Assembly: GCA_016214745.1 (NCBI GenBank)
Contig: JACRNW010000011.1
Span: 1 to 46,145 of the forward strand
Source of the DNA: Candidatus Falkowiibacteriota bacterium
Lineage (GTDB): Bacteria; Patescibacteriota; Patescibacteriia; XYB2-FULL-38-15
Direction of reading: 5' to 3'
Length of the DNA: 46,145 nucleotides
Position numbers and translations under genes: made by a program. Each line of letters starts with the position of its first letter. Within the stretch, counting starts at the first letter, position 1. Shown in pieces: positions 14,241-37,560 of the stretch. The notes under the pieces are model-generated. The model saw nothing but the letters and a program-made list of their open reading frames with translations, did not search any database and was not told the origin of the DNA.

Positions 14241-14246
14241 TAAAAA

Positions 14247-14403
14247 GCCGCTGACAGACCCGTGGGCGGTATGCCGGCCCGAAAGGCCCGGCGACGGAGG
14301 CTTGTTCGATATACAAGTCGAAGACTGTTGCACAGAGATCGCGCTCTATGTGGCTACATGGGTCATCTCGGCTCTTGGTCTATTAGATTGAGAGCCGCTT
14401 TTT
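14247..14403 (+). ncRNA. structured GC-rich RNA of unknown family, about 157 nt
   Basis: It lies between a consensus promoter and a very strong terminator (CGGCTCTTGGTCT/AGATTGAGAGCCG, 14369-14397, then CTTTTT). Visible helices: an outer helix GACCCGTG (14257-14264) with CATGGGTC (14357-14364); a GC-rich hairpin GCCGGCC...GGCCCGGC near 14274-14293; CTTGT/ACAAG near 14302-14318; and CACAGAG/CTCTATGTG near 14330-14352. This is a multibranched RNA closed by a long-range helix. It lacks the marks of SRP RNA, tmRNA and RNase P that I would expect to see, and I cannot place it as 6S RNA. Its GC content is far above that of the flanking A/T-rich spacers. Confidence 0.6.
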
Positions 14404-14874: not shown

Positions 14875-15603
14875 ATGTTCCACGTTTTTTGGCACGATTT
14901 TCTCTACACCCCGCTCTTGAATTTTTTGATTTGGCTTTATAACGGCCCGGCTTTTGGAAATCTGGGCGTGGCCATTATCTATCTGACAATTATTATTCGC
15001 GTTGTTCTTTTGCCTTTCACGGTTGTTTCGGAGCGCAGTAAAATTCTTTACGAAAAGTTGGGCCAAAAAATTGATAAAATCGGACAAGATTTTAAAAATG
15101 ATCCGATTCAGAGAAAAGAGACGATTCGCAAAGTTATGCGGGAACATCGCGTGAGTCCTTGGGCGAAAGTTACGGTGCTCGGCGTTCAGGCCTTGACCTT
15201 GGTTCTTTTGTATCAAGTTTTCATCGGAGGAATTAACGGAAAATTGGGCGACTTGTATTCCTGGGTAGCTCATCCGGATTTTATCAACACTAATTTTTTA
15301 GGTTTTGATTTGGGAGAAGTGAGAAATTTATTTTGGAGCGGCATTGTTGGCGTAGTTCTTTTTTTGGAAATTTTTATTGATTATCGCAGTAAGGAAGGCG
15401 GGATTACTAAATCCGAAGTGGCCTATATGATTTTTTTTCCGGCGGCATGTTTTTTTACCCTTTGGCTTTTGCCGATGGCTAAATCAATTTTTATTTTAAC
15501 TTCAATTTGTTTTTCTTTCCTTGTAATATTTTTTAGGCAAATAATTAAGAAGAAATTTAAAGTTGGAGAGAGCGTGATTGCGGACGGGAAAGTGAAGGCG
15601 TAG
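14875..15603 (+). CDS. yidC: YidC/Oxa1 family membrane protein insertase
   Basis: 242 aa, the short form without the large periplasmic domain of proteobacterial YidC. Hydrophobic segments lie at about 10-24, 33-52, 101-118, 152-170, and two near 180-225. The signature IIYLTIIIRVVLLPF with the conserved Arg (R42) in the first core helix is the hydrophilic-groove arginine. A charged cytoplasmic hairpin follows (SERSKILYEKLGQKIDKIGQDF). It inserts and folds inner-membrane proteins with or without Sec. It starts 21 bases after tRNA-Glu and may share its transcript. A 7-bp terminator hairpin (15633-15651 plus T run) closes the unit. Confidence 0.93.
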   Translation: MFHVFWHDFLYTPLLNFLIWLYNGPAFGNLGVAIIYLTIIIRVVLLPFTVVSERSKILYEKLGQKIDKIGQDFKNDPIQRKETIRKVMREHRVSPWAKVTVLGVQALTLVLLYQVFIGGINGKLGDLYSWVAHPDFINTNFLGFDLGEVRNLFWSGIVGVVLFLEIFIDYRSKEGGITKSEVAYMIFFPAACFFTLWLLPMAKSIFILTSICFSFLVIFFRQIIKKKFKVGESVIADGKVKA

Positions 15604-15719: not shown

Positions 15720-15724
15720 GAGTC

Positions 15725-15753
15725 TTGACAAAATTTTAAGAATATGATATAAA
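15725..15753 (+). promoter_or_regulatory. consensus promoter of a GC-rich transcript
   Basis: TTGACA (15725-15730), a 17-base spacer and TATAAA (15748-15753). Confidence 0.8.
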
Positions 15754-15759
15754 GGAAGT

Positions 15760-16234
15760 ACTTGCGGTCGGCGCGTGAAGTTGGAGCTCCGGGTGCGCAC
15801 TCGTCTCCCCTCGCGCCTGCCGCGACCTGCGCTGTTCCAGGCGTCTGCGCAAACTGCGGTCGCTGGATGTCTTCTGCCCAAGGGCGGGGACGGAACAGGT
15901 GCAGAGTCTTTGCCCCACGTGGCGGCTCGGGGGTGGAACCTGAGCCGGGAAATTTACGGTGAGTCGGTGCCACCCGACAAACCAGGCGAACCTGCCACTC
16001 CTGTCTCGACAAGGCGAGAATGTCTTGTCCTAGCAGGTCGTGGAACCCGTGTCCATACCACCATGGCCATAGGCTATCAGGGGCGGCATAATCGGTTTGG
16101 CTGACGGTCCCAACAACAGGGCCCCTTCGGCCAGCCGGTTCCGGACTTCCGAGTGGAGGTCTGCGGTGTCGCAACATTCGCGCCGGACGGAAAGATTGCC
16201 GAGAGGTGGTCAATTCGTCCGGCGCACTTTTTTT
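15760..16234 (+). ncRNA. GC-rich transcript of about 475 nt, probably a large structured RNA
   Basis: A consensus promoter precedes it and a 10-bp terminator stem ends it (GCGCCGGACG 16180-16189 with CGTCCGGCGC 16216-16225, then T run). GC is about 65% in the 60 bases from 15841. Many exact helices can be drawn: GCGACC...GGTCGC around TGCGC/GCGCA (15825-15870), GGCTCGGG/CCTGAGCC (about 15922-15944), ACCTGC/GCAGGT enclosing GACAAG/CTTGTC (15990-16040), GACTTCC-GAGT-GGAGGTC (about 16144-16161). None of the hallmark sequences of RNase P or tmRNA is visible. A GTG frame 15775-16104 (109 codons) exists but lacks a well-placed ribosome site, unlike the other GC-rich cassettes, so an RNA gene is preferred. 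A short orphan protein remains possible. Confidence 0.5.
16180..16234 (+). terminator. terminator of the GC-rich transcript
   Basis: A 10-bp perfect GC stem with an inner helix GATTGCC/GGTGGTC and a tail of seven T. Confidence 0.85.
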
Positions 16235-16244
16235 ATTCCAGACC

Positions 16245-16273
16245 TTGACAAAATTGCTTTTCAGAGTTAGTAT
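16245..16273 (+). promoter_or_regulatory. promoter of the SPFH gene
   Basis: TTGACA (16245-16250), a 17-base spacer and TAGTAT (16268-16273), 47 bases before the ATG at 16320. Confidence 0.65.
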
Positions 16274-16319: not shown

Positions 16320-16901
16320 ATGGCAGATTCCTTAGACAAAATAATGTATTCGTTTGTCGTGGAGGACGTCTTAAAGGGTTTTTTCATCACTGTCCCGCCG
16401 GGTTATGTTGCCTGTGTTTATGATTTGGGCAGGGGAGTCCTGAAAAAAGTTTTGCAGCCGGGATTACACTTAAAAATTCCGTTTTGGCAGAGAGCCAAAT
16501 TGTTTAATACTCAAACGCTGGAATATAATATCAGTAAAGATTTTAATTTAGAAAATATCAGAGCTCTGGGTGATTCGCCGATTGGCTCGGTGACGCTGGA
16601 CAGCAAAAATATCCAGATTGAAGGCACGATTCTTTTACGGCTGGATATGGAACAGATTCCGTACATCTGGCAAAATATCGGTGAGGATTTTGTGGAAAAA
16701 ATCATCCGGCCGACAATTAGAAGCCGGCTCCGCATGATCGCTTCGCTTTATTCCGCCCAGGACATTGTTTCGCTCCAGAGAAATCAAATTGAAGTGGCGA
16801 TCACGAACGAACTGGACAGAATTTTCCATCCGCGGGGAATCCACGTGGAAAACGTTCTCCTCTCGGAGATTGGACATCAGTTTGTTAAAAGTAACGGGTA
16901 A
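16320..16901 (+). CDS. SPFH/band 7 (prohibitin-like) domain protein, C-terminally truncated
   Basis: 193 aa from the ATG at 16320; an earlier in-frame start lies upstream of the promoter and is rejected. Residues 20-185 are a band 7 domain: FFITVPPGYVACVYDLGRGVLKKVLQPGLHLKIPFWQRAKLF, DSKNIQIEGTILLRLD, IIRPTIRSRLRMIASLYSAQDIVS and ELDRIFHPRGIHVENVLLSEI. Prohibitins normally continue after this point with a long coiled coil that makes the ring or cage. Here the frame ends at GHQFVKSNG, exactly where an A/T-rich repeat (GGTAATTAGTAATGGGTAAT, related to 22556-22588) begins. The protein may therefore be a remnant or a non-oligomerising short form. There is no clear N-terminal TM helix beyond the hydrophobic VLKGFFITV stretch. 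Confidence 0.8.
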   Translation: MADSLDKIMYSFVVEDVLKGFFITVPPGYVACVYDLGRGVLKKVLQPGLHLKIPFWQRAKLFNTQTLEYNISKDFNLENIRALGDSPIGSVTLDSKNIQIEGTILLRLDMEQIPYIWQNIGEDFVEKIIRPTIRSRLRMIASLYSAQDIVSLQRNQIEVAITNELDRIFHPRGIHVENVLLSEIGHQFVKSNG

Positions 16902-18390: not shown

Positions 18391-18575
18391 TTCTCCCCTT
18401 AAGGTAAGGGGAGATTAAGAGGGGTTATGAATGGTGGATTTTAGTGCCACGGTTCATAACGCCCCCGCCCGCCACGCAAGCCAGCCCCGCCTGCAACGCT
18501 ATGCTTGCATTAGCGGGCAGGTTGCTGGCGTTGCGGGCAGGCCCAGCCCCTCTTATCTTAAGAGGGGTGGTGCTA
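18391..18575. repeat. long dispersed repeat, full copy
   Basis: Starts with TTCTCCCCTTAAGGTAAGGG and ends with AGCCCCTCTTATCTTAAGAG followed by GGGTGG, so the ends are roughly inverted; the middle is rich in GCCCGCC and GCGGGCAGG hairpins. The first 140 bases (18391-18530) recur nearly unchanged at 37353-37491, and a short inverted piece of the family lies at 36455-36495. The middle shares 18 exact bases with an in-frame insert in the SpoU methyltransferase gene. Confidence 0.8.
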
Positions 18576-36728: not shown

Positions 36729-37262
36729 ATGGCAAAGGTGTCTCAGAGACAGGACAAGACCCAGCGAAGGATCATTGGTCGCCGGAGAATTCTCCGCGAC
36801 ATCGTGGAGGCTCTCAATACCGGCAGAGTGACAGAAGAGCAGCTTCGTAGAGCGCTATTCCAGTCACTCCTCGCCGCCTGCCAGCAGAACTTGGTCAAAC
36901 CCGACTTCAACGGAGAGCACTATCCTCTAGAGCCTGTGACGCTCGACGAGCACGAGTGGGAAGTTGCGGAGTACCATTTCAAGGACGTGATCTCAGATGA
37001 GCGGGCCTTTGCCAAACTTAAGGCAATGGGCTACCGGCTATGCGGCGTGCGCCGGGCCATGGAGTTCATCGCGGTTCATCCCGACCTCCAGCTCGACCAT
37101 CCTCTCGTGGTCACCGCCCGTTGGCAGAGCTCGGACGACCACCGGTATGTACCGATCTTCCACCGGGCTCGCGAAGTTGGGCGCTACCTCTATCTGGACC
37201 GCCTTCCGCGTGACTTCGACCCGAACTTCGGGTGGCTCCTCCTAAGGAAGCGCGTCGCCTAG
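36729..37262 (+). CDS. orphan protein of a GC-rich cassette (177 aa)
   Basis: The ATG at 36729 is chosen because GGAGGAATGCC places a full Shine-Dalgarno at the right distance. The protein is soluble. A basic, helical N-terminus (SQRQDKTQRRIIGRRRILRD, then IVEALNTGRVTEEQLRRALF) is followed by a mixed domain (LDEHEWEVAEYHFKDVISD; LKAMGYRLCGVRRAMEFIAV; LDHPLVVTARW) and a Trp/Arg-rich end (LPRDFDPNFGWLLLRKRVA). Composition and length look like a real protein, but I recognise no family. GC content, codon use and ribosome site differ sharply from the neighbours, and it has its own promoter and terminator. Proteins of this kind occur as orphans in Patescibacterial genomes. Confidence 0.75.
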   Translation: MAKVSQRQDKTQRRIIGRRRILRDIVEALNTGRVTEEQLRRALFQSLLAACQQNLVKPDFNGEHYPLEPVTLDEHEWEVAEYHFKDVISDERAFAKLKAMGYRLCGVRRAMEFIAVHPDLQLDHPLVVTARWQSSDDHRYVPIFHRAREVGRYLYLDRLPRDFDPNFGWLLLRKRVA

Positions 37263-37352: not shown

Positions 37353-37560
37353 TTCTCCCCTTAAGGTAAGGGGAGATCAAGAGGGGTTATGAGCGGTGGA
37401 TTTAGTGGCACGGTTCATAACGCCCCCGCCCGCCACGCAAGCCAGCCCCGCCTGCAACGCTATGCTTGCATTAGCGGGCAGGTTGCTGGCGGCAAGTAAA
37501 ACTAGTTATGGCCTGAGCTTGTCGAAGGCCCTTCGACTTCGCTACGCTCCGCTCAGGGAA
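37353..37560. repeat. second copy of the long repeat plus the CTGAGCTTGTCGAAGG repeat
   Basis: 37353-37491 is nearly identical to 18391-18530 but lacks the right half of that repeat. It passes into 37508-37560, which carries GGCCTGAGCTTGTCGAAGG and CCTTCGACTTCGCTACGCTC and is related to 15661-15719. This fills the gap between the GC-rich cassette and dnaX; no gene is seen. Confidence 0.8.

Follow-up and report, generated by a model that had tools for sequence, protein, structure and literature searches.

The 46,145-nt stretch of DNA analysed here (the window) carries, between a presumed YidC-like gene and an SPFH/Band 7 gene, a GC-rich unit of 475 nt on the forward strand, with a GC content of 64% in its body against 43% for the genome. 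The locus is composed of the following features, all on the + strand.

14246–14403, +: GC-rich unit of 158 nt with a TTGACA-17-TATAAA promoter and a strong terminator
14875–15603, +: upstream neighbour of 242 aa with relatives in the class, a presumed YidC-like protein
15725–15753, +: promoter of the candidate, with −35 TTGACA at 15725–15730, a 17-nt spacer and −10 TATAAA at 15748–15753
15760–16234, +: candidate GC-rich non-coding transcript of 475 nt, the start at about 15760 being predicted
15764–15823, +: predicted domain 1, the 5' helix GCGGUCGGCGCG.../...CGCGCCUGCCGC, on which the MFE and centroid folds agree
15775–16104, +: open frame of 109 codons, judged non-coding from its coding score, Pfam and tblastn
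15824–15907, +: predicted domain 2, a three-way junction with the closing helix GACCUGCGCUGUUCC/GGAACAGGUGCAGAGUC
15911–16083, +: predicted domain 3, multibranched, with a less certain junction (mean pair probability 0.79)
16088–16163, +: predicted domain 4, the two hairpins AAUCGGUUUGGCUG.../...CAGCCGGUU and CGGACUUCC/GGAGGUCUG
16180–16234, +: intrinsic terminator with a 12-bp stem, an inner hairpin and T7, from sequence reading and folding
16244–16272, +: promoter of the downstream gene, TTGACA-17-TAGTAT, from a promoter scan
16320–16901, +: downstream neighbour, an SPFH/Band 7 protein (Pfam Band_7, 9e-26)

Both ends of the unit carry signals of the textbook quality that an earlier note on this DNA had claimed for them. 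The promoter, of the sigma-70 type, was recovered at an 11/12 consensus match by a genome-wide scan, having been overlooked by a simpler scan that demanded T as the last −10 base, and the terminator stem (16180–16191 paired with 16214–16225) comprises 12 pairs, one of them G-U, followed by T7 at 16228–16234. Judged by these sequence signals, the unit possesses an independent promoter and terminator. Since a promoter of its own, at 16244, precedes the SPFH/Band 7 gene, the candidate is a separate unit, and this promoter together with the candidate's own terminator argues against an mRNA leader. The 12-bp direct repeat CTTGACAAAATT flanks the candidate, with copies at 15724 and 16243; it was rejected as an insertion scar because each copy is a −35 region and no such repeat was seen in the other cassettes read. 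It is improbable that the unit is GC-rich DNA of foreign origin that is transcribed but has no function: its divergent GC content and its occurrence in a single genome would fit such an origin, but the promoter and terminator are clean and sit exactly at the GC boundaries, and the predicted fold is strand-specific.

The view that 15760–16234 holds no convincing protein is borne out by the coding analysis. A codon model was trained on the four GC-rich protein genes of the window, each left out in turn for scoring; these genes score +0.02 to +0.10 nats per codon in their true frames, whereas the frame at 15775–16104 scores −0.09 and lacks the lowered GC content at second codon positions that is present in the four genes. 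No coding signal was found in the candidate in six frames or in 40-codon sliding windows on both strands, the best value being slightly negative, and in this respect the candidate behaves as expected of a structured non-coding RNA. A frame as long as 109 codons appears in 16% of shuffles, and its translation has no Pfam match, while tblastn against 84,980 genomes and IMG/VR found no relative. Each of the window's four protein cassettes has the Shine-Dalgarno sequence GGGAGGG or AAGGAGG, in agreement with the earlier note, whose companion statement that the 109-codon frame lacks a ribosome site holds for the start at 15775 but not entirely for the in-frame GTG at 15794 (103 codons), which is preceded at a distance of seven bases by a weak GGAG, the sole ribosome-site-like feature of the frame. 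A real small protein, of 103 aa from GTG 15794 or of 109 aa from GTG 15775, could draw on this GGAG and on the open frame itself, but the negative score, the flat GC content by codon position, the ease with which shuffles yield such a length, the lack of relatives and the location of the GGAG inside a predicted helix make it a poor prospect.

The body was also described as rich in exact helices, and folding upholds this. The whole transcript has an MFE of −232.4 kcal/mol (z −4.16 against shuffles; antisense z −0.93). Without the terminator, the MFE of the body is −195.9 compared with −172.0 ± 6.3 for dinucleotide shuffles, 0 of 100 of which are as low (z about −3.8); across runs of 60 and 100 shuffles z ranges from −3.0 to −3.8 with no shuffle as low, and the antisense body gives z +0.41. 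Stability above that of shuffles, on the sense strand only, is what a structured non-coding RNA would be expected to show. The MFE and centroid folds are largely concordant, with a mean probability of 0.86 for the MFE pairs; domain 2 folded alone reaches a mean pair probability of 0.93, and the region 16050–16180, which covers domain 4, has z −3.8. Unpaired A is not enriched in the candidate relative to shuffles. Because z-scores of −3 to −10 also occur among the GC-rich coding stretches and repeats of this genome, the z-score alone cannot tell a structured RNA from an mRNA. The candidate is, however, among the three lowest of 25 GC-rich genome units for both energy per base and positional entropy, and what sets it apart is low entropy together with strand asymmetry and the lack of coding signal.

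The candidate matches no known RNA family. The Rfam/Infernal check, including the RNase P and tmRNA models, returned no family at or above its gathering score in Rfam 15 for the candidate, OLE, ROOL and GOLLD included; the whole window yielded three tRNAs only, and the candidate with its flanks gave just two matches at E up to 5, both far below the gathering score. Neither the RNase P RNA covariance model (RF00010) nor the tmRNA model (RF00023) with the ARAGORN tag reading frame matches the candidate. The suggestion that it could be a highly divergent housekeeping RNA (RNase P, tmRNA, 6S or SRP) fares badly. Its size falls within the RNase P and tmRNA range, and, like these RNAs, it is predicted to be structured; the difference is that both are already present elsewhere in the same genome, above cut-off (RNase P RNA at G000:C9:29249–29666, tmRNA at G000:C10:113235–113617), so that the housekeeping reading is rejected for these two. 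The small bacterial SRP RNA model found no match in the genome, which could leave room for such a role, and no SRP match lies in the 475-nt candidate; the non-detection does not point to the candidate. Together with the absence of the candidate from the sister species, the family and the class, this renders a housekeeping RNA the least probable of the alternatives, and very improbable in itself.

Large structured bacterial non-coding RNAs of unclear function, such as OLE, ROOL and GOLLD, provide the closest comparison (PMC12286853). Like these, the candidate appears as a stand-alone unit of several hundred nucleotides with many predicted helices and no protein (PMC12286853); unlike them, it is known from one copy, and so lacks covariation support, and it has no sequence or covariance match to them in Rfam 15. 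It likewise resembles the candidates of the GC-IGR pipeline, which picks long GC-rich intergenic stretches in more AT-rich genomes and then needs homologues (PMC11109978), in being a long GC-rich block between genes of a more AT-rich genome, but differs from them in that no homologue was found (PMC11109978).

The source genome (G000; 0.92 Mb, 19 contigs) is accompanied in our collection by one genus mate (G001, the sister species) and one family mate (G002). BLAST with the candidate found no homologue in 95 relatives, in 380 genomes of the class and 379 of the phylum, or in phages and plasmids. A 343-position covariance model of the candidate found none over the 380 class genomes (379 besides its own), and with laxer filters it found no further copy in the readable part of its own genome, where contig C8 includes about 75 kb of N and a few ends of contigs were left out, or in 0.18 Mb of G002. 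The candidate is absent from the sister species and from the class genomes searched. Of the class and phylum BLAST matches of 19–33 nt, the three best in the class lie inside ordinary-looking genes and were judged to be chance, as were the 11-bit covariance-model matches in G146 and G196; for a 19-mer exact match in a Planococcus record, about 2 are expected by chance in 257 Gb. In G002 and in four more distant class members (G015, G018, G019 and G030), the yidC-like and SPFH genes form a syntenic pair without the candidate RNA, the gap being about 70 bp in G002 (read directly) and about 220 bp or less between matched ends in the other four. These short gaps imply either a local gain of the candidate in the source genome or its loss in all five. 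In the sister species the pair is either gone or missing from the assembly.

Against its 43% GC background, the source genome contains several dozen GC-rich units of one gene each, equipped with a TTGACA-type promoter and a terminator; two cassette scans covering most of the genome listed 48 and 55 units, which overlap and include some chance entries. Nearly all units with good promoters carry an ORF with a Shine-Dalgarno sequence (5–7-nt matches), whereas the candidate does not. Because the GC-rich stretches here are mostly protein cassettes, GC content alone is a weak cue to a non-coding RNA in this genome. The protein cassette at 36729–37259, the sole one tested, has distant relatives scattered patchily over the class, a distribution that fits individual cassettes being gained and lost.

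This abundance of protein cassettes underlies the main rival to a structured RNA gene, namely that the candidate is a GC-rich protein cassette, decayed or very atypical, which has lost its ribosome site and frame but kept its promoter and terminator, the fold being a by-product of GC content. Units in which strong ribosome sites precede short frames only (L109:12001–12301 and the L068 units) lend it some plausibility. We consider it unlikely, as coding signal is absent from every window of every frame, a ribosome site of the usual strength is lacking, and composition-matched shuffles are less stable than the candidate on the sense strand only. In one of these short-frame units, L068:15542–15830 (−), conserved in the sister species as L145:369–665 (−) with 72% identity over 308 nt, a strong ribosome site precedes a very short frame starting MGIRYGP; this unit may encode a small protein, or it may combine a peptide with an RNA. 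Separately, a dispersed repeat of about 150 bp with CCCCTTAAGGTAAGGGG-type inverted-repeat ends, identified by eye, occurs at 18397–18566 and 37353–37496 of the window and at L106:8268–8450.

The clearest GC-rich units of the genome without a credible ORF are the candidate, the unit at 14246–14403 of the window, and two further loci, to which an orphan of the sister species can be added.

L087:5093–5469 (G000:C2): non-coding unit of 377 nt, with a homologue in the sister species at L178:3327–3652 (G001:C43)
L106:7900–8223 (G000:C13): non-coding, GC-rich, z −4.35
L175:2573–2990 (G001:C40): orphan unit with a putative non-coding transcript about 430 nt long, predicted to fold into a near-continuous long helix, z −8.1; longest frame 14 codons

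L087 and L178 share 81% identity over their first 122 nt (E about 3e-25) and the same promoter-terminator layout, and their consensus structure contains 5 compensatory pairs in which both sides have changed, although two sequences offer little for covariation. Sequence comparison of this pair shows that a GC-rich non-coding unit of this type can be a conserved RNA. The pair resembles the candidate in being GC-rich and structured, with a TTGACA-17 promoter, a terminator and no credible ORF, but shares no sequence similarity with it. Neither L087/L178 nor L175 matches Rfam; the unit at 14246–14403 contains no ORF over 29 codons and matches neither Rfam nor, by BLAST, the sequence searched from G001 and G002. 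Homology of the candidate to the L087, L106, L109, L111 and L175 cassettes was searched for and none was found. The motif TGGGGAGTCC lies near the 5' end of both L087 and L106, at a nearly equal distance from the start; it was rejected as a family signature, the promoter-plus-motif combination occurring only in these two among 380 class genomes and the candidate lacking the motif. L170, listed by a scan as non-coding, resembles on reading a protein cassette whose frame extends beyond the called terminator, and it was set aside.

A non-coding, structured and independently transcribed RNA is, on the modelled fold and coding scores, the best reading of the candidate, which we believe is probably an accessory gene, restricted to this lineage, whose product is a structured non-coding RNA about 475 nt long. 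In this reading, a single RNA would be transcribed from about 15760 to 16234, adopt the predicted four-domain fold and in this form act in trans, most likely in protein binding or as a scaffold for RNA assembly. The gene would share its format, and perhaps its route of gain and loss, with the several dozen GC-rich one-gene cassettes of the genome. Its status as a new RNA class is unproven, given a single sequence with no homologue and no covariation; the candidate is best regarded as belonging to a small group of accessory cassettes for structured RNAs. More tentatively, the genus may carry fast-turnover RNA-only cassettes, that is, large structured RNA genes with their own promoter and terminator that are singly gained and lost in the GC-rich format of the orphan protein cassettes, with the candidate, L087/L178, L106:7900–8223, the unit at 14246–14403 and L175 as members.

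If real, the candidate would be a large structured RNA that belongs to none of the curated families; in a small, streamlined genome of 0.92 Mb, a dedicated accessory RNA gene of 475 nt would be unexpected. Non-coding cassettes of this GC-rich kind recur in two species of the genus and provide a concrete set for testing whether such orphan RNA genes form a new group.
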